From IMG/VR virus record IMGVR_UViG_3300044996_000076, positions 1-32,936 of that record: a DNA stretch of 32,936 nucleotides; one strand, 5' to 3'. A model generated the notes under the pieces. The model worked only from the letters and a program-made list of their open reading frames with translations. It had not been told where the DNA came from and did not search any database. A program made the position numbers and the translations under genes. This stretch comes from a virus. This document shows, piece after piece, positions 1,559 through 7,642 of this stretch (its first letter is position 1; each line of letters begins with the position of its first letter).

Positions 1559-3225
1559 GTCTTGCAACCCTCGCACGCTCCATGCTGAGTTCCCTCCGAA
1601 AGGGGGCCGCGACAATGGCCGCGACGATGACCTACCCGTTCCAGCAGGAATCCGCTGGCGAACTCTGGCCGCAGGAACCGGCGCTGACGCGGTACCGGAC
1701 CTACAGGCACTATGAGCGCATATTCTCCGGCGACCACGAGGAGTTGTGGGACCCTCAACGAGACCCCGATGATGCTCCCTACGTGACGGTCAACGTGAGC
1801 GCGGCGCTGACGCAGACTATCGTGGACCGCCTGTGGGGCAGCCCGCCGAAGCCAGGGGTCGCCCAGGACGAACAGGTAGAGACGGTCGGCGAGGACGGTC
1901 TGCCTATCGCGCAGGAAGAGGACCCTCGGGCCGCTATGCTCAAGGACATCTGGGAGGCCTCGCAGCTCGACACCGAAGGGAAGCTGGCGGTCGAGACGCG
2001 CTCCTGGGCAGGGGACGGTGTGCTGAAGGCCTTCTATGATGCTGCCGCGAACGCGGTTCGGGTGACGATCGTAGACCCCGAGTCCTTCGACGCGACCTTC
2101 GACCCGCTGGACGCGGCCCGAATGACGGAGGCCGTCTTCTCTACAGTCATCCCGAACCCGCTTGACAACGCGCATGATTGGCTGTTCGAGGAGGCGCACA
2201 CGCTGGTCACTGACGAGGACGGGACGCAGAGTGGGCTGATTGAGAACCGCCTCTACGAACTCTCGGCGACCGCCTACACGGGGCACATGCAGGCCGACCA
2301 ACGCCTGCGGAGGCGCGTGCCGTGGGAGAAGCGCCCCGACATACTGGCCCCGCTGGAGGAGTTCGTCGAGACGGGCATCGACGTGCTGCCGGTTGTGCTC
2401 ATCCCCAACCGCAAGACCGCGCGCACCCGACCGTGGGGGCGCTCAGACTACTGCGAGACCGAAGCAATCCAGCGGCAACTCAACCGGCGCTATACGGAGA
2501 CGAACGCAATCCTGGACAAGCATGAGGACCTCATCCTCTACGGGGACATTTCCCTGTTCGACCGGGAGGGCGAGGGGATGGAGTTCAACTACTACCGCAA
2601 CCGGGCCATCCCGCTACAGCAGGGCGAGGACCCGCCAGGGTACATCCCCTACCCGGGCACGACCGCCGAAGGGCAGGCCGAGGCGGATACCCTCAAGCGG
2701 GACTTCGCGCGGGTCTCGCGGGTCAACCCCGAGAGCATGGGTCTGATTGACGGGGGGCTGCCGCCGTCCGGTCGGGCAATCAAGCTCATGCAGGTGAATA
2801 CGACCTCAACCGTAGACGGGCACCGGCTGGTAATCGACCCGCTGCTCCGGGCGGTACTGTCGGCGGCGACGAAGCTCCATGCGGCGTGGGTCCAGGGGGC
2901 CGAGGGTGTCGAGTCGGTCGGTTGGCTGGAACCCGACGAGATTCACCTGGAGTGGTCTGACGGCCTTCCGGAGGACATGCTGGAGTCCGTGCAGCTTGCG
3001 TCGCAGGCCGCATTGAGTGGACTCCCGCTGCAGAAATGGCGTCTGGTACAGATTGTGTTCCCTGAGATGACGCAGGAAGAGTGCGAGGCAGAGGTCGCGG
3101 CATCCGAAGCAGAGTCGCAGGCGGCGATGGAGGCCTCGTTCGGGGCCGCGCAGGAAGCGGCAGGCGGGAGTACGGACATCGGCGGCGGCGACCTCGAAGG
3201 CGCGGTGAACGAACAGGGAGGGTAG
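1555..3225 (+). CDS. Phage portal protein
   Basis: 556-residue portal, the dodecameric ring at one capsid vertex through which DNA enters and leaves. It directly follows the terminase with a 4-base ATGA overlap, the normal order. The sequence has the portal pattern: an N-terminal helical part with a tyrosine-rich stretch (RYRTYRHYERIFSG, about residues 43-56), YVTVNVSAALTQTIVDRLWG near 75-93, a central wing and stem (VVLIPNRKTARTRPWGRSDYC about 280-300) and a C-terminal alanine/glutamate-rich helical tail ending in Gly/Glu-rich sequence. Length is usual for SPP1 gp6-like or HK97-type portals. Assignment rests on overall pattern plus gene order, since portals have no short catalytic motif. Confidence 0.9.
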   Translation: MSLATLARSMLSSLRKGAATMAATMTYPFQQESAGELWPQEPALTRYRTYRHYERIFSGDHEELWDPQRDPDDAPYVTVNVSAALTQTIVDRLWGSPPKPGVAQDEQVETVGEDGLPIAQEEDPRAAMLKDIWEASQLDTEGKLAVETRSWAGDGVLKAFYDAAANAVRVTIVDPESFDATFDPLDAARMTEAVFSTVIPNPLDNAHDWLFEEAHTLVTDEDGTQSGLIENRLYELSATAYTGHMQADQRLRRRVPWEKRPDILAPLEEFVETGIDVLPVVLIPNRKTARTRPWGRSDYCETEAIQRQLNRRYTETNAILDKHEDLILYGDISLFDREGEGMEFNYYRNRAIPLQQGEDPPGYIPYPGTTAEGQAEADTLKRDFARVSRVNPESMGLIDGGLPPSGRAIKLMQVNTTSTVDGHRLVIDPLLRAVLSAATKLHAAWVQGAEGVESVGWLEPDEIHLEWSDGLPEDMLESVQLASQAALSGLPLQKWRLVQIVFPEMTQEECEAEVAASEAESQAAMEASFGAAQEAAGGSTDIGGGDLEGAVNEQGG

Positions 3226-3228
3226 GCG

Positions 3229-5073
3229 GTGCCGAAGCCAAAGCCCGCACCCACAACCGCCGAGGAACTCCTGGCCGCGCTGAAGGTGGCTCATGCCGAG
3301 CTGGCCGCCGAACTACTGCGACTCCGCGAACAGGCCCTTGCGCGCGGCGTCGGGACGACCTGGACCATCGAGTTCGTTGAGGGGCGCTTGGCCCTCGTCG
3401 AGGAGGCTATCGCGCAAGTAAGCGCGCAGGTCCTCGGGCCGCCGGGCGAGTTCGGCATGGCCGCGAACCTCGTCCAGCAGGGATACGCAGTCGGCCTGAA
3501 CCTGACCGCGAAGTCCCTGACGCTGCAGGGCGTCACGGACGTGGTAGAAGCCGCGATGACCGACTTTCACGTTCCGGCCATGCTCGCAATCGCCCAGGAG
3601 GCTACGGACGGCTACCAGGGCCTTTACCAAGCCGTCCTCCGCCGCGAGAACGACGCCTACCGCAAAATCCAGGCGCACTTCGCGCAGGTGGCGCTGGCGA
3701 AGGGCGAGACAGGCAGCGAACTCACCGGGCGGCTGGCGAGGGAGTTCGTGGACGCGGAGATGCAGAAGGGCGGGGTAATGGTCGGGCTCAAGCGGAACTG
3801 GGCCATCGAGGACTACGCCGAGATGCTGGGGCGCACGGTAGCTCAGAAGGCCGCGAGGGAGGCGGGCCTGAACCGCGTCGTAGAGACGGGGAATGACCTC
3901 GTGATTGTGATTGGCGGCAGGATTGAGACGACCTGCAAGACCTGCCTGTGGGCGGACGGAAAGGTGTTCAGCATCTCGAACCAGCGGGCCAAGCCTGATG
4001 GCGTTCCTGAGGCCCTGTGGGGCGGGCCGATAGAGCTTATCAAGGTCGAGCACAGCACAGCCCGCGACCGGCGCGTGGGGAAGAAGAACAGCCCGCCGGT
4101 CGGACATCCGAGGTGCCTGCTGCCCGGCACGAGGGTAGTGGCCCCGAACCTACTGGGGGCTACTCGCGCTTGGTACGTTGGCGAGGCGGTCGAACTTAGC
4201 CTTGCCTCTGGCGCACGGCTTTCCGTGACCGCCAATCATGTGCTCTTGGGGCCGGAGGGTTGGGTCCGCGCGGGCAGCCTCTGCCAGGGCGACTATGTAG
4301 TCTATGCACCCGGCCTCGAACGGGTAATGGGAACTCAACCAGAGTACGATAAGATGCCACCCCTCGTTGAGCACGTATTCGCTGCGGCGCTTGTGGCGCG
4401 CGGCATGTCTACCATGACTATGCCAGTTTCCGCAGAAGACCTCCACGGCGACGGGTGCTTCTGCCAGGGCCAGATCGAGGTTGTAGCGCCCGACAGCCTT
4501 CTGGGGGACTGTGGCCCACCCCCGTTCGGCCAGAGCCTGAGCAACCAGTTCCTCCATTCGGCTCCCGAACGAACCCTTGAGTTCGCGGGCGATAGCCAGC
4601 TTACGCCGGAACTCATCCGTTTGGGGCTTGCCTCGGACAGCATCGTGGGCAGCTTGCGTGATACGCCTCCGTCCTTCTGGTCCGAGCGTCGCCATGCGTA
4701 TCCGATGCTGTTCCGAGCACGTTCGCCTGGGGATGCCCCAGTCCTTGATTCGCTTATCGATGGTTCCCTGGGATACACCAAAGTGCCGCTGGAGATAGCC
4801 AACGCTATGCCCGGCGGCATAGAGCTTTGTGAGGTCGTCTCGGTCAATCGCGCGTCGGTAAGTGCCCATGTCTATGACCTCCATTCCCTAAGCTCATTGT
4901 ATGTTTGCAGCGGCGTTGTGTCAAGCAACTGCATTCACGACTTTGGGGCATACATCCCCGAGGCGACCACTGAGGAGTCGATCGAAGAACTACGGACGAC
5001 CCTGGAGGAGTACGCGGACGACCTGGGGCTCGACATAGCGAACGGAGGACAGATTGGAGGGCGTGTGCCATGA
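3229..5073 (+). CDS. MuF-like minor head protein interrupted by an intein
   Basis: 614-residue precursor from a GTG start 3 bases after the portal stop. Exteins are residues 1-295 and 568-614, giving a 342-residue mature protein after splicing. The extein has the MuF (phage head morphogenesis) arrangement: a helical N-terminus, then TCKTCLWADGK at 235-245, and an HPRC-IHDFGAYIPE motif formed only after splicing. MuF proteins sit at the portal vertex and help head assembly or are ejected with DNA. The intein is inserted immediately before the conserved Cys of that HPxC motif, so an unspliced product would have a broken core domain. The 3' end overlaps the next gene (ATGA). Family assignment rests on the Cys/His motifs and on position after the portal. 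Confidence 0.88.
   Translation: MPKPKPAPTTAEELLAALKVAHAELAAELLRLREQALARGVGTTWTIEFVEGRLALVEEAIAQVSAQVLGPPGEFGMAANLVQQGYAVGLNLTAKSLTLQGVTDVVEAAMTDFHVPAMLAIAQEATDGYQGLYQAVLRRENDAYRKIQAHFAQVALAKGETGSELTGRLAREFVDAEMQKGGVMVGLKRNWAIEDYAEMLGRTVAQKAAREAGLNRVVETGNDLVIVIGGRIETTCKTCLWADGKVFSISNQRAKPDGVPEALWGGPIELIKVEHSTARDRRVGKKNSPPVGHPRCLLPGTRVVAPNLLGATRAWYVGEAVELSLASGARLSVTANHVLLGPEGWVRAGSLCQGDYVVYAPGLERVMGTQPEYDKMPPLVEHVFAAALVARGMSTMTMPVSAEDLHGDGCFCQGQIEVVAPDSLLGDCGPPPFGQSLSNQFLHSAPERTLEFAGDSQLTPELIRLGLASDSIVGSLRDTPPSFWSERRHAYPMLFRARSPGDAPVLDSLIDGSLGYTKVPLEIANAMPGGIELCEVVSVNRASVSAHVYDLHSLSSLYVCSGVVSSNCIHDFGAYIPEATTEESIEELRTTLEEYADDLGLDIANGGQIGGRVP
4150..4869 (-). CDS. Vsr-like homing endonuclease encoded antisense inside the intein
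   Basis: 239-residue protein on the minus strand, wholly inside the intein coding region. Domains: an HTH at about 11-45 (LYAAGHSVGYLQRHFGVSQG, ending KDWGIPRR), a NUMOD3-like DNA-binding stretch at about 51-95 (CSEQHRIRMA, AAHDAVRGKP), and a Vsr/EDxHD-type PD-(D/E)XK nuclease at about 103-195. The nuclease shows NLDLAL (D132), VAVEVFCGNWHSH (E143, W149, H150) and NEGWHLIVLW (W177). This domain order is known from homing endonucleases. The ATG at 4869 is chosen over the ATG at 4884 because GGAGGT lies 7 bases upstream of it. Codons are in exact register with the sense intein codons, so each is the reverse complement of an intein codon. Probable role: cutting intein-free MuF alleles. Confidence 0.85.
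   Translation of the reverse strand: MGTYRRAIDRDDLTKLYAAGHSVGYLQRHFGVSQGTIDKRIKDWGIPRRTCSEQHRIRMATLGPEGRRRITQAAHDAVRGKPQTDEFRRKLAIARELKGSFGSRMEELVAQALAERGWATVPQKAVGRYNLDLALAEAPVAVEVFCGNWHSHGRHAARHKRRSEYVLNEGWHLIVLWLSSHYPFEAGCIDYIVALAEAARADPTLRPQEHMIGGHGKPCARGKAKFDRLANVPSASSPQ
4867..4882 (-). promoter_or_regulatory. Ribosome binding site and start of the antisense endonuclease, within intein block F
   Basis: On the minus strand GGAGGT (4882-4877) is followed by 7 bases and ATG (4869-4867). On the plus strand the same bases are the codons for H-V-Y-D-L of the conserved intein block F. It decides the start of the endonuclease at 4869. No clear minus-strand promoter was recognised upstream. Confidence 0.75.
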
Positions 5074-5210
5074 GCCGGACCTTCCGGCGCGACAAGAGCC
5101 GCGAGTTCGGCGGGACGCACAAGCGGGACCTGCGGGCAGAGAAGAAGATGAAGCGTATCGTGAAGCGCAAGCCGAAGGCCAGCGTGCGGAACAAGCAGAG
5201 GGAGGCGTAG
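5070..5210 (+). CDS. Small highly basic protein (46 residues)
   Basis: Begins at an ATG overlapping the MuF stop (ATGA) and ends 1 base before the next gene's GTG. The product starts MSRTFRRDKSREFGG and contains KKMKRIVKRKPK; about 40% of residues are Lys or Arg, and there is no Cys, membrane segment or enzymatic motif. It is one of five small basic proteins in the head and tail genes (others at 11222, 12444, 14172 and 14432). Translational coupling to MuF is likely from the overlap. Function unknown; nucleic-acid or capsid binding is an inference from charge only. Confidence 0.7.
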   Translation: MSRTFRRDKSREFGGTHKRDLRAEKKMKRIVKRKPKASVRNKQREA

Positions 5211-5211
5211 G

Positions 5212-6258
5212 GTGACATCGGTTGTCGAGAGTGAGGACCACAACGTCTCGCAGGTATATACCCCGACTGCTACCGCAGAAGAACGGCGCGAGGCCCGCGA
5301 CAACTGGGAGTGCCCGCCGACCGAAGAAGACGCCGAGGCCGCGCCGACCGGCCAGAAGCCCGTGCGCTACATCGGCACCGTCTACGCCATGATGGGGCTA
5401 GACCAGCAGTCGAAGCAGTGGGTCCACAACTGGGATGCCATCCGCGACTGGAACACGCGCAACATCGAGGCTGAGTTCGGCCGCGCCGAGCCGAGGTTCG
5501 ACTGGCGTATCAAGTACCCGTTGTCCGGGCATAGATACAATGACCAGCAGCGGGAGGAGGCGGCGAACCAGACCGAGGGCGCGTGGCTGTGTTACCTCGA
5601 TACGGACATGGTGTTCTCCGCTGACGTGGTGGGGCGGCTCATCCACTCCATGAGGGCCATCGAGGAGCAGGACGGGAACTGCGAAATCGTGTCCGGCCTC
5701 TACACGAACCGCGAACCGACGCGGCTGCCGATTATTTACCGCTACGCTCCGGAGAGGGACCTCTGGACGAACGTGCTGGAGTTCCCGTGGGACCGCCCGT
5801 TCCGTGTGGACGGGGCGGGTGGCGGTTGCCTGCTGGTCAAGCGCGGGCTCCTGGACGCGGTGCGCCGCAGGTTCGGTCTCTGCTTCGGGATGCTGCCGAA
5901 CTACCGCACCGAGGACCTGTGTTTCTTCAAGCGCGTCTATGACCTGGGGAAGGTGCCTGTGTGGTGCGACCCTCGGATACAAGCAGGCCATGCCTACCTG
6001 ACGTTCGCCATGCCGGACGACTTCAAGGCGCTGCAGGCCGACGCCGCGCAGAAGGCCGAGGCCGATGGCCGTCTGTTCCGCTGCCTGCCGGACAGGGCCT
6101 TCCTGACAGTGCCGACAGCGGCGCGGCTGACGGGGCGCACAGAGGAGGAACTCGCGGCGGCAATGCTGAACCACATGGTCGTGGCGAAGGTCGAAGGCGG
6201 GAGGAAGCTGCTGGAACTGACCTCACTCATCGAGTGGCACGGGCGCGGAGGCGCTTGA
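5212..6258 (+). CDS. Glycosyltransferase-like protein (GT-A fold, GT2-like)
   Basis: 348 residues from a GTG with GGAGG 6 bases upstream. The central region resembles GT-A glycosyltransferases: RYIGTVYAMMG strand at about 52-62, DxD-type LDTDMVF with D130 and D132 for metal/nucleotide-sugar binding, GGGCLLVKR at about 203-211, acceptor/base-like TEDLCFF (E234, D235) and a late His (QAGH, H260). The last 60 residues (LTVPTAARLTGRTEEELAAA onward) look like an excisionase-type helix-turn-helix. Residues 8-19 (EDHNVSQVYTPT) nearly match residues 73-84 of the major capsid protein, which is unexpected. Located between MuF and the capsid genes, it might glycosylate virion proteins, DNA or host surface; substrate unknown. 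Confidence 0.7.
   Translation: MTSVVESEDHNVSQVYTPTATAEERREARDNWECPPTEEDAEAAPTGQKPVRYIGTVYAMMGLDQQSKQWVHNWDAIRDWNTRNIEAEFGRAEPRFDWRIKYPLSGHRYNDQQREEAANQTEGAWLCYLDTDMVFSADVVGRLIHSMRAIEEQDGNCEIVSGLYTNREPTRLPIIYRYAPERDLWTNVLEFPWDRPFRVDGAGGGCLLVKRGLLDAVRRRFGLCFGMLPNYRTEDLCFFKRVYDLGKVPVWCDPRIQAGHAYLTFAMPDDFKALQADAAQKAEADGRLFRCLPDRAFLTVPTAARLTGRTEEELAAAMLNHMVVAKVEGGRKLLELTSLIEWHGRGGA
5233..5268 (+). repeat. Segment shared with the major capsid gene (copy 1)
   Basis: 36 bases encoding EDHNVSQVYTPT near the start of the glycosyltransferase-like gene. They match 8892-8927 in the capsid gene at 29 of 36 positions by hand count, including 14 identical bases at the start, in the same reading frame. Confidence 0.6.
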
Positions 6259-6493: not shown

Positions 6494-7642
6494 ATGCCGA
6501 CGAAGTCCGACCTATACGGCTGGACCTACCCGCGAGTGTTTACGGGTTCAGGGAATGCGACCGACGTAGAACTGCGGGCCGACCCGACAACCTATGCCCT
6601 GCACGTTACAACTGCCCCGGGGAGCCCCCTATATACGCAGGGGACAAGCTCGAACCCCACCTACGTCGCAGGGACGACGACAAAGCCGGTCTATGTGGCG
6701 ACCGAAGCCACGGAGAAGCTCTGGGTAAAGGGGTCATCCTCGAACCCCGTTTACGTGGGAGGAGTCTCGGGCTCTCCGGTCTACGTGGGTACGGAAGCAA
6801 CGGAGAAACTATGGGTCAAAGGCACCTCCTCGAACCCGGTCTATGTAGGCGGGGTCTCGGGCAGTCCGGTTTACGTGGGCACGGAAGCCACTGAAAAGCT
6901 GTGGGTCAAAGGTACCTCCTCGAACCCGGTCTATGTCGGCGGAGTCTCGGGCAGTCCGGTCAATGTAGCTACTGAGGCGACCGAGAAGTTGTGGGTGAAG
7001 GGAACCAGCAGCAACCCCGTCTATGTGGGGGGTGTCTCCGGGTCTCCGGTGTACGTCGCGACGGAGGCAACCGAGAAGCTCTGGGTCAAGGGCACCTCCT
7101 CAGACCCTGTCTACATTGAGGGCCTGGAAAACGAGGCCCTGCCGACAATGAGTTCGGAGCACCACAGCATCCACGAGTCGAAGCACTTCTACATCGGGGA
7201 CTATATCGAACTCGGGTCGGGCAGTACCATGTCCTGGTACTTCACGACGCCGAACACGACGACCTGGACGCACATGACCTTCGAGGTGGACGCCCAGGCC
7301 CTCGTGACGGTGGACTTCTACGAGGGCGGGACCTACGGCGGCGGCGGGACTGCCTCAACCGCGCTGAGTCCGGCGCAGGTGCTCAACAACAACCGGAACA
7401 GCAACGCGACCACCTCCCTGACCATCTTCCGCAACGGGACGGCCAGCGCGCTCGGCAGCAAGATTCTGGGGGTAAAGCTGGGGGCGGCGACAACCCCGAC
7501 GAACCGCGCCGCCGGGGCACTTGACCGAAGCGAGGAAATCATCCTGAGGCAGAACACGACCTACATCCTGGTCATCACCTCCGGCGCGGCGACCAACACG
7601 GTCACCTATCACGCGAAGTGGTACGAGGAGGTAATGCCCTAG
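6494..7642 (+). CDS. Repeat-rich fibre or capsid-decoration protein
   Basis: 382 residues, ATG with a strong GGAGGTGA upstream. Residues about 50-210 are a tandem array of 30-residue units (TEATEKLWVKG, SSNPVYVGG, VSGSPVYVG), each made of three roughly 10-residue elements ending in V-Y-V or L-W-V, as expected for a beta-solenoid or fibrous shaft. The C-terminal part (about 215-382) looks like a compact beta domain: HHSIHESKHFYIGDYIEL, VDFYEGGTYGGGG, an Asn-rich NNNRNSN loop, and a final TYILVITSG...WYEE strand. That resembles phage proteins found near capsid genes whose terminal domain is exposed. Likely a head fibre, decoration or adsorption protein; the exact role is inferred from layout and repeats. 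Confidence 0.65.
   Translation: MPTKSDLYGWTYPRVFTGSGNATDVELRADPTTYALHVTTAPGSPLYTQGTSSNPTYVAGTTTKPVYVATEATEKLWVKGSSSNPVYVGGVSGSPVYVGTEATEKLWVKGTSSNPVYVGGVSGSPVYVGTEATEKLWVKGTSSNPVYVGGVSGSPVNVATEATEKLWVKGTSSNPVYVGGVSGSPVYVATEATEKLWVKGTSSDPVYIEGLENEALPTMSSEHHSIHESKHFYIGDYIELGSGSTMSWYFTTPNTTTWTHMTFEVDAQALVTVDFYEGGTYGGGGTASTALSPAQVLNNNRNSNATTSLTIFRNGTASALGSKILGVKLGAATTPTNRAAGALDRSEEIILRQNTTYILVITSGAATNTVTYHAKWYEEVMP
6641..7123 (+). repeat. Tandem 90-bp coding repeats (five TEATEKLWVKG units)
   Basis: Units start at 6701, 6791, 6881, 6971 and 7061, exactly 90 bases apart, with a degenerate partial unit before and a truncated last one. Protein sequence is almost unchanged between units, but many codons differ synonymously (for example Glu-Ala-Thr-Glu-Lys is written differently in each copy). 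Confidence 0.9.

Follow-up and report, generated by a model that had tools for sequence, protein, structure and literature searches.

An apparent homing endonuclease gene overprinted antisense on a predicted intein of a phage MuF-like head protein gene

Introduction

Can an intein carry its homing endonuclease gene (HEG) on the opposite DNA strand, codon over codon with the splicing protein? The question is raised by a MuF-like minor head protein gene in the viral record IMGVR_UViG_3300044996_000076, the whole 32,936-nt stretch of which is called the window here and supplies all positions given below. The textbook intein combines its splicing and homing domains in a single polypeptide. In canonical HEG-containing inteins, such as PI-SceI and PhoVMA, the Hint fold is interrupted mid-way by the HEG region, with the nuclease as one of the domains of that polypeptide. 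The original prediction for the window, made by reading its sequence, placed the nuclease on the other strand. We followed up this reading with profile searches, structure models and comparisons of related loci.

Methods

A tblastn search with the minus-strand protein matched 120 phage records, from which 21 representatives were read. Scans of viral-contig and genome-contig collections, run with sub-alignments, contributed a further 122 loci and one locus, respectively, with prokaryote chromosomes thinly sampled. The resulting nuclease set comprised 145 loci, which fell into 100 non-redundant clusters at 90% identity. For a sense-side search, only the intein N-terminus served as the query, so that loci would not be selected by their nuclease. 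A follow-up scan for inteins with a nuclease in the same-strand +1 frame returned 80 loci (L262-L341), some of them on contigs already found. The AlphaFold input for the nuclease was 58 sequences from the window and viral contigs.

Results

The sense strand of the locus, downstream of terminase- and portal-like ORFs, holds a 614-amino-acid ORF with Phage_min_cap2 and PHROG minor head/head morphogenesis matches. Its parts are as follows.

3229 to 5073, plus strand: MuF-like minor head protein gene, intein included
3229 to 4113 and 4930 to 5073, plus strand: N-extein and C-extein, parts of the MuF gene
4114 to 4929, plus strand: predicted intein of 272 residues, from Cys1 (at 4114) to Asn272 (4927 to 4929), with the +1 Cys at 4930
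4225 to 4248, plus strand: intein block B, SVTANHVL, with T39 at 4228 to 4230 and H42 at 4237 to 4239
4867 to 4884, plus strand: intein block F, HVYDLH
4915 to 4929, plus strand: intein block G, VVSSN

Two further plus-strand ORFs were observed elsewhere in the window, one with tandem YVGTEATEKLWVKGTSSNPVYVGGVSGSPV-type repeats (6494 to 7642) and one with a prepilin-like stretch inside the phage contig (17324 to 18355).

Across 65 aligned sequences, Cys1 and Asn272 were invariant, and T39, N41 and H42 of block B were invariant or nearly so. The intein matched the Pfam profile Intein_splicing (PF14890) at E=1.8e-4 and 21.8 bits, which is under the 35.8-bit cut-off. An AF2 model of the sense protein gave a Hint fold at both ends with pLDDT >90, and its best structural matches were the RecA, VMA and GyrA inteins. 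The middle of the model is largely disordered, with pLDDT <50 at residues 130-161 and 176-223, which face the nuclease, and profile searches returned no nuclease match in this sense middle. The penultimate residue of block G is Ser and not His, which counts against reading the insert as an intein with an HEG. The sense ORF is continuous over 614 codons, whereas the halves of a split intein lie in separate ORFs. An RNA intron, including a group I intron, was rejected as the identity of the insert, since an Rfam search of positions 3200-5300 with E values up to 1 returned no match. From the conserved residues and the modelled fold, we infer that the insert at 4114-4929 is a self-splicing intein of the MuF gene. 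The intein boundaries, splicing blocks and both reading frames named in the original prediction were all located correctly.

The opposite strand carries a second reading frame with the following features.

4150 to 4869, minus strand: antisense nuclease gene of 239 amino acids plus stop codon, ATG at 4869 and stop at 4150
4741 to 4842, minus strand: helix-turn-helix region, nuclease residues 10-43 (HTH_28 match; AF2 helices at 10-18, 23-30 and 34-43)
4231 to 4560, minus strand: predicted Vsr/EDxHD-like nuclease domain, residues 104-213 (AF2 pLDDT mostly >90)
4552 to 4554, minus strand: E106, putative catalytic residue, >90% conserved
4474 to 4476, minus strand: D132 of YNLD, putative catalytic residue, invariant
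4441 to 4443, minus strand: E143 of VAVEV, putative catalytic residue, invariant, facing sense Leu110
4444 to 4455, plus strand: sense residues 111-114 (HGDG), opposite the active-site strand

This frame is in codon-on-codon phase with the intein, as had been predicted. An alternative in-frame ATG at 4884 would give 244 amino acids and overlaps the Shine-Dalgarno sequence. In addition to HTH_28, the minus-strand protein matched the Pfam family MTES_1575 (REase) at E=8.6e-9, with a score of 35.8 bits that is 2.4 bits under the 38.2-bit gathering cut-off. The same profile was matched singly by 39 of 58 nuclease family members; the free-standing nuclease of L133, searched alone, did not match it. 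The AF2 model of the nuclease (mean pLDDT 90.8) has the N-terminal helix-turn-helix, then helices, then the Vsr-like domain, and its C-terminal ~17 residues, which face block A, are mostly of low confidence or disordered. VIA-align matched the model to Vsr (1cw0; Z 11.2 over 113 residues, 2.6 A), 3hrl (Z 10.5) and I-Bth0305I (Z 10.4). I-Bth0305I and Vsr also ranked first in Foldseek, at E 0.007-0.02, with no match below E 0.001. We are confident, on the model and the profile matches, that the minus-strand protein is a predicted helix-turn-helix plus Vsr/EDxHD-type nuclease with a PD-(D/E)xK Vsr-like fold. These matches uphold both domains of the original prediction; its NUMOD3-like segment had no counterpart, as NUMOD3 was not detected in the antisense nuclease by Pfam.

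The antisense layout recurs widely. The facing codon-on-codon sense frame was open in 99 of the 100 nuclease clusters, and the other two opposite frames held many stops. Clusters with an open facing frame span a GC range of 0.26-0.70 and include loci at 26% GC (L127-L132) and 34% GC (L011). Approached from the sense side, 106 of 116 loci carried an antisense nuclease in the same phase (82/92 among loci new to the set); antisense stops were thus not frequent in related inteins. The other ten were three incomplete contigs, one sense-broken locus (L177), one locus that seems to be a mini-intein (L261) and five with a same-strand nuclease, which are taken up below. The exceptional nuclease cluster (L015, L133) is free-standing and has 12-13 stops in the facing frame. 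In its Acinetobacter phage P1068 member (L015:2330-3223), the MuF gene lacks an intein and is closely followed by the nuclease gene on the opposite strand, with 12 facing-frame stops, which marks the nuclease as a gene in its own right. Two loci (L142/L143) have one in-frame stop in the nuclease frame and an intact sense intein frame, possibly an instance of HEG decay. Many deposited phage genomes carry the element unannotated, and a few label the minus strand as hypothetical.

In a window as GC-rich as this one, an open antisense frame is weak evidence by itself. Only 1 of its 33 extein Leu/Ser codons is TTA, CTA or TCA, the codons that would read as stops on the facing strand, and other long antisense ORFs are present. 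The evidence beyond chance for the antisense gene is its homology and its conservation. Among embedded nucleases, none of 3589 Leu/Ser codons is TTA, CTA or TCA; L045 and L101 look like exceptions in the codon table, probably through contig-edge register artefacts. The same codons make up 715/4535 Leu/Ser codons (15.8%) in the corresponding exteins and 13/42 in the free-standing cluster. From extein codon use this avoidance has a log10 P of about -299, with loci treated as independent though they are not wholly so.

Substitution patterns also follow the antisense frame. In pairs at 85-99% identity, changes at sense positions 1/2/3 were.09/.06/.26 in the N-extein,.06/.05/.28 on the N side of the intein and.02/.02/.14 on its C side. 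Opposite the nuclease they were.108/.020/.060, so that the wobble there falls on sense position 1, which is antisense position 3, and this held at each of the three levels of divergence compared. Over blocks A/B the antisense tail has hardly changed (.018/0/.036), which is the pattern expected of DNA that is important in both frames. The codon avoidance and this flip in periodicity bear out the earlier suggestion that one stretch of DNA is selected in both frames, and they show antisense selection where selection on the sense frame alone had been named as the counter-case. Taken together, the sequence comparisons establish that both genes are real and under dual constraint: the element, which looks mobile, holds two genes under selection, one overprinted on the other.

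The active-site strand was a particular point of the original prediction, which regarded the sense string EDLHGDG as simply the complement of VAVEVF. It is more than that. At antisense four-fold codons in this strand, the choice retained is the one that keeps sense H-G-D-G (GTG 80/83, GCC 85/88, GTC 45/49 and xxC 46/46), and H111-G112-D113 is conserved at >=90%, so that strings of this type do recur in relatives. Conservation of the sense HGDG exceeds what the antisense protein requires. Both frames appear to constrain the stretch, although a motif acting at the DNA or RNA level could be the cause instead.

Signals for initiation of the antisense gene lie inside the splicing motifs.

4877 to 4882, minus strand: Shine-Dalgarno sequence GGAGGT, 7 nt before the ATG at 4869, conserved in relatives
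4896 to 4901, minus strand: candidate -10 box TACAAT (5/6), 26 nt before the start codon
4919 to 4924, minus strand: candidate -35 box TTGACA (6/6), 17-nt spacer, within the block G codons

Written as HVYDLQ, block F has the complement TTGGAGGTCNTANACATG, a Shine-Dalgarno sequence plus ATG. In relatives, block F codon choice is skewed to match: His is CAT in 71/79 cases (45% elsewhere), Leu is CTC in 65/75 (25%) and Gln is CAA in 71% (34%). In block G, Ser is TCA in 91% against 8%, and Leu ten codons before the junction is TTA in 44% against 5%; on the minus strand, these biased block G and pre-junction codons read TTGACA and TATAAT. The candidate promoter of the window is TTGACA-N17-TACAAT at 4924-4896, and eight relatives score 12/12 at the same place. 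A -35/-10 pair of >=10/12 was found in 21 of 69 representatives, where synonymous shuffles gave an expected 1.1 and a maximum of 4 in 300. Of the 48 representatives left, 20 carry an extended -10, TGNTATAAT, in most cases at a different but again fixed position (4.7 expected, maximum 11); these tests, like the codon tests, count related loci as independent. Neither promoter type was found in 28/69 representatives, many of them GC-rich, and the case for a promoter is convincing for some family members only. With the embedded promoter and Shine-Dalgarno sequence, separate expression of the nuclease from MuF is plausible.

We also looked for signs of mobility. A query with the joined exteins of a Salmonella MuF matched 334 phage records; among the matches listed, some have a contiguous MuF gene, that is, an empty site (e.g., FSL SP-101), and others are split by an 816-nt insert. 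Escherichia phage Snoke (L010) and Salmonella phage BPS11Q3 (L021) differ by ~5% of nucleotides in the intein core and by ~30% in the N-extein. In phage Ec1-ASingh (L020), a related intein with its antisense nuclease is inserted elsewhere in MuF, at STTC^RARDG rather than HPNC^R. The presence/absence alleles, the mismatch between intein and extein divergence and the second MuF site all agree with homing and support it. The minus-strand nuclease would probably be the homing enzyme that spreads the intein.

A second layout emerged from the sense-side search. Five loci (L254, L255 and L257-L259) have no antisense nuclease and carry a nuclease in the same-strand +1 frame (e.g., L258:3257-3853, plus strand). 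Members of this class are inteins, several clearly in helicases, and the four nucleases tested matched DUF559 above the cut-off, at up to E 5e-15. Of 84 loci, 80 keep the facing frame open, always in the same relative phase; 38 of the 80 show a recognisable Hint N-terminal pattern, which the other 42 did not match. In two close pairs, substitutions at positions 1, 2 and 3 numbered 5, 11, 27 and 7, 8, 25, and these track the nuclease frame. Their sequences indicate that inteins with same-strand +1-frame DUF559/Vsr-like nucleases are a separate, independent class.

Discussion

We propose, with a probability of about 0.88, that the locus is a mobile intein of the MuF gene whose HEG lies codon-on-codon on the opposite strand as its own small transcription unit. 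On the sense strand, the MuF precursor would be read straight through, with the Hint halves flanking a largely unstructured stretch that mainly has to be free of stops, and the intein would then excise itself to leave mature MuF. On the other strand, RNA polymerase in this clade may start at the sigma70-like promoter within blocks G-F and make a transcript with a leader of ~20 nt, in which GGAGGT and the start codon would both be complements of block F. The helix-turn-helix plus Vsr/EDxHD nuclease would cut intein-free MuF at the insertion site, and repair would copy the element in. The HEG would pay for overprinting by forgoing TTA/CTA/TCA.

One challenge to any antisense gene is that it arose by chance in GC-rich DNA, with the nuclease similarity leaking from a conserved sense protein, and the window by itself could indeed stay open by chance given its rarity of unfavourable extein codons and its other long antisense ORFs. 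We rejected this explanation, to which we give almost no weight, on the codon avoidance, the periodicity flip and the open frames in low-GC cases. The identical layout at 26-45% GC, the free-standing homologue with a broken facing frame, the Vsr-like fold with conserved E106/D132/E143 and the conserved Shine-Dalgarno, start and promoter signals likewise speak against it; the matches in Pfam, Foldseek and VIA-align also supply the nuclease homology whose absence would have told against the original prediction.

Accepting a real nuclease still leaves room for other readings of what the element does. It might not now be homing the intein, being a decaying passenger or having another role, such as cutting competitor genomes, and the nuclease-frame stop in L142/L143 with an intact sense frame fits decay. 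We consider this unlikely in view of strong purifying selection on the nuclease frame in most pairs, the coexistence of empty and filled alleles and inteins that are more alike than their exteins in some pairs. It is very unlikely that the sense polypeptide is instead an unspliced in-frame insertion that stays in MuF, with only the nuclease mattering. The ShiLan domain shows that such insertions exist (PMC11855218), but the conserved Cys1, block B, block F and Asn272/+1 Cys, the confident AF2 Hint fold matching solved inteins and the sense-type constraint at the sense ends tell against that reading.

This arrangement can be set against several known systems. Canonical inteins share the mid-Hint position of the HEG, with the nuclease in the same polypeptide there and on the other strand here. 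I-Bth0305I and Vsr resemble the present nuclease in domain fold and acidic residues; I-Bth0305I is encoded by a group I intron, whereas here the nuclease is antisense and embedded in an intein. Fractured genes with split inteins and a free HEG between the halves were reportedly described by Dassa et al. in 2009. There too a Vsr-like HEG is physically within the intein and unfused, but the halves are separate genes, whereas here the sense frame is continuous. In a literature search we found no paper describing antisense HEGs in inteins; a 2025 preprint by Gosselin et al. on actinobacteriophage inteins with non-canonical architecture, whose title suggests overlapping or out-of-frame HEGs, may overlap and may include Gordonia MuF cases. 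The closest published case is the ShiLan domain, which is not an intein and has a same-strand, out-of-frame HNH nuclease (PMC11855218). As in the present locus, the insertion leaves the reading frame of the phage host gene open, the nuclease is read in another frame and homing is likely; in ShiLan, however, no splicing domain was detectable and no RBS was found (PMC11855218). In the present locus, the nuclease is Vsr-like and on the strand opposite the host gene, the splicing element is a predicted Hint intein, and a candidate promoter and RBS lie within the splicing motifs. Antisense HEGs are also found in the nuclear rDNA group I introns Dsq.L2066 and Dir.S956-2 (Lian et al., 2022; PMC9548176), where the HEG is likewise opposite the strand of the splicing element. 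There, a ribozyme splices, the HEG sits in a peripheral insertion and the sense strand need not stay open (PMC9548176); here a protein would be spliced and the genes overlap codon over codon.

In conclusion, we consider it likely that this is a widespread class of phage inteins, in which an autonomous antisense HEG is overprinted codon-on-codon, its promoter, Shine-Dalgarno sequence and start codon lie in the complement of blocks F/G, and the active-site strand/HGDG is selected in both frames. If the same-strand +1-frame class is added, HEGs read out of frame would then count as a standard form of intein, and might be a stage on the way to split inteins. The homing gene would be separated from the splicing protein yet remain within the same DNA, and expression of the homing enzyme could be uncoupled from that of an abundant late structural protein. 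Overprinting would make the HEG hard to lose, because many HEG lesions break the sense frame too, and the homing gene would not be easily deleted without breaking the host gene. As a natural example of antisense overprinting the element is also clean, its free-standing and decayed copies serving as controls, and its layout offers a testable route to split inteins.
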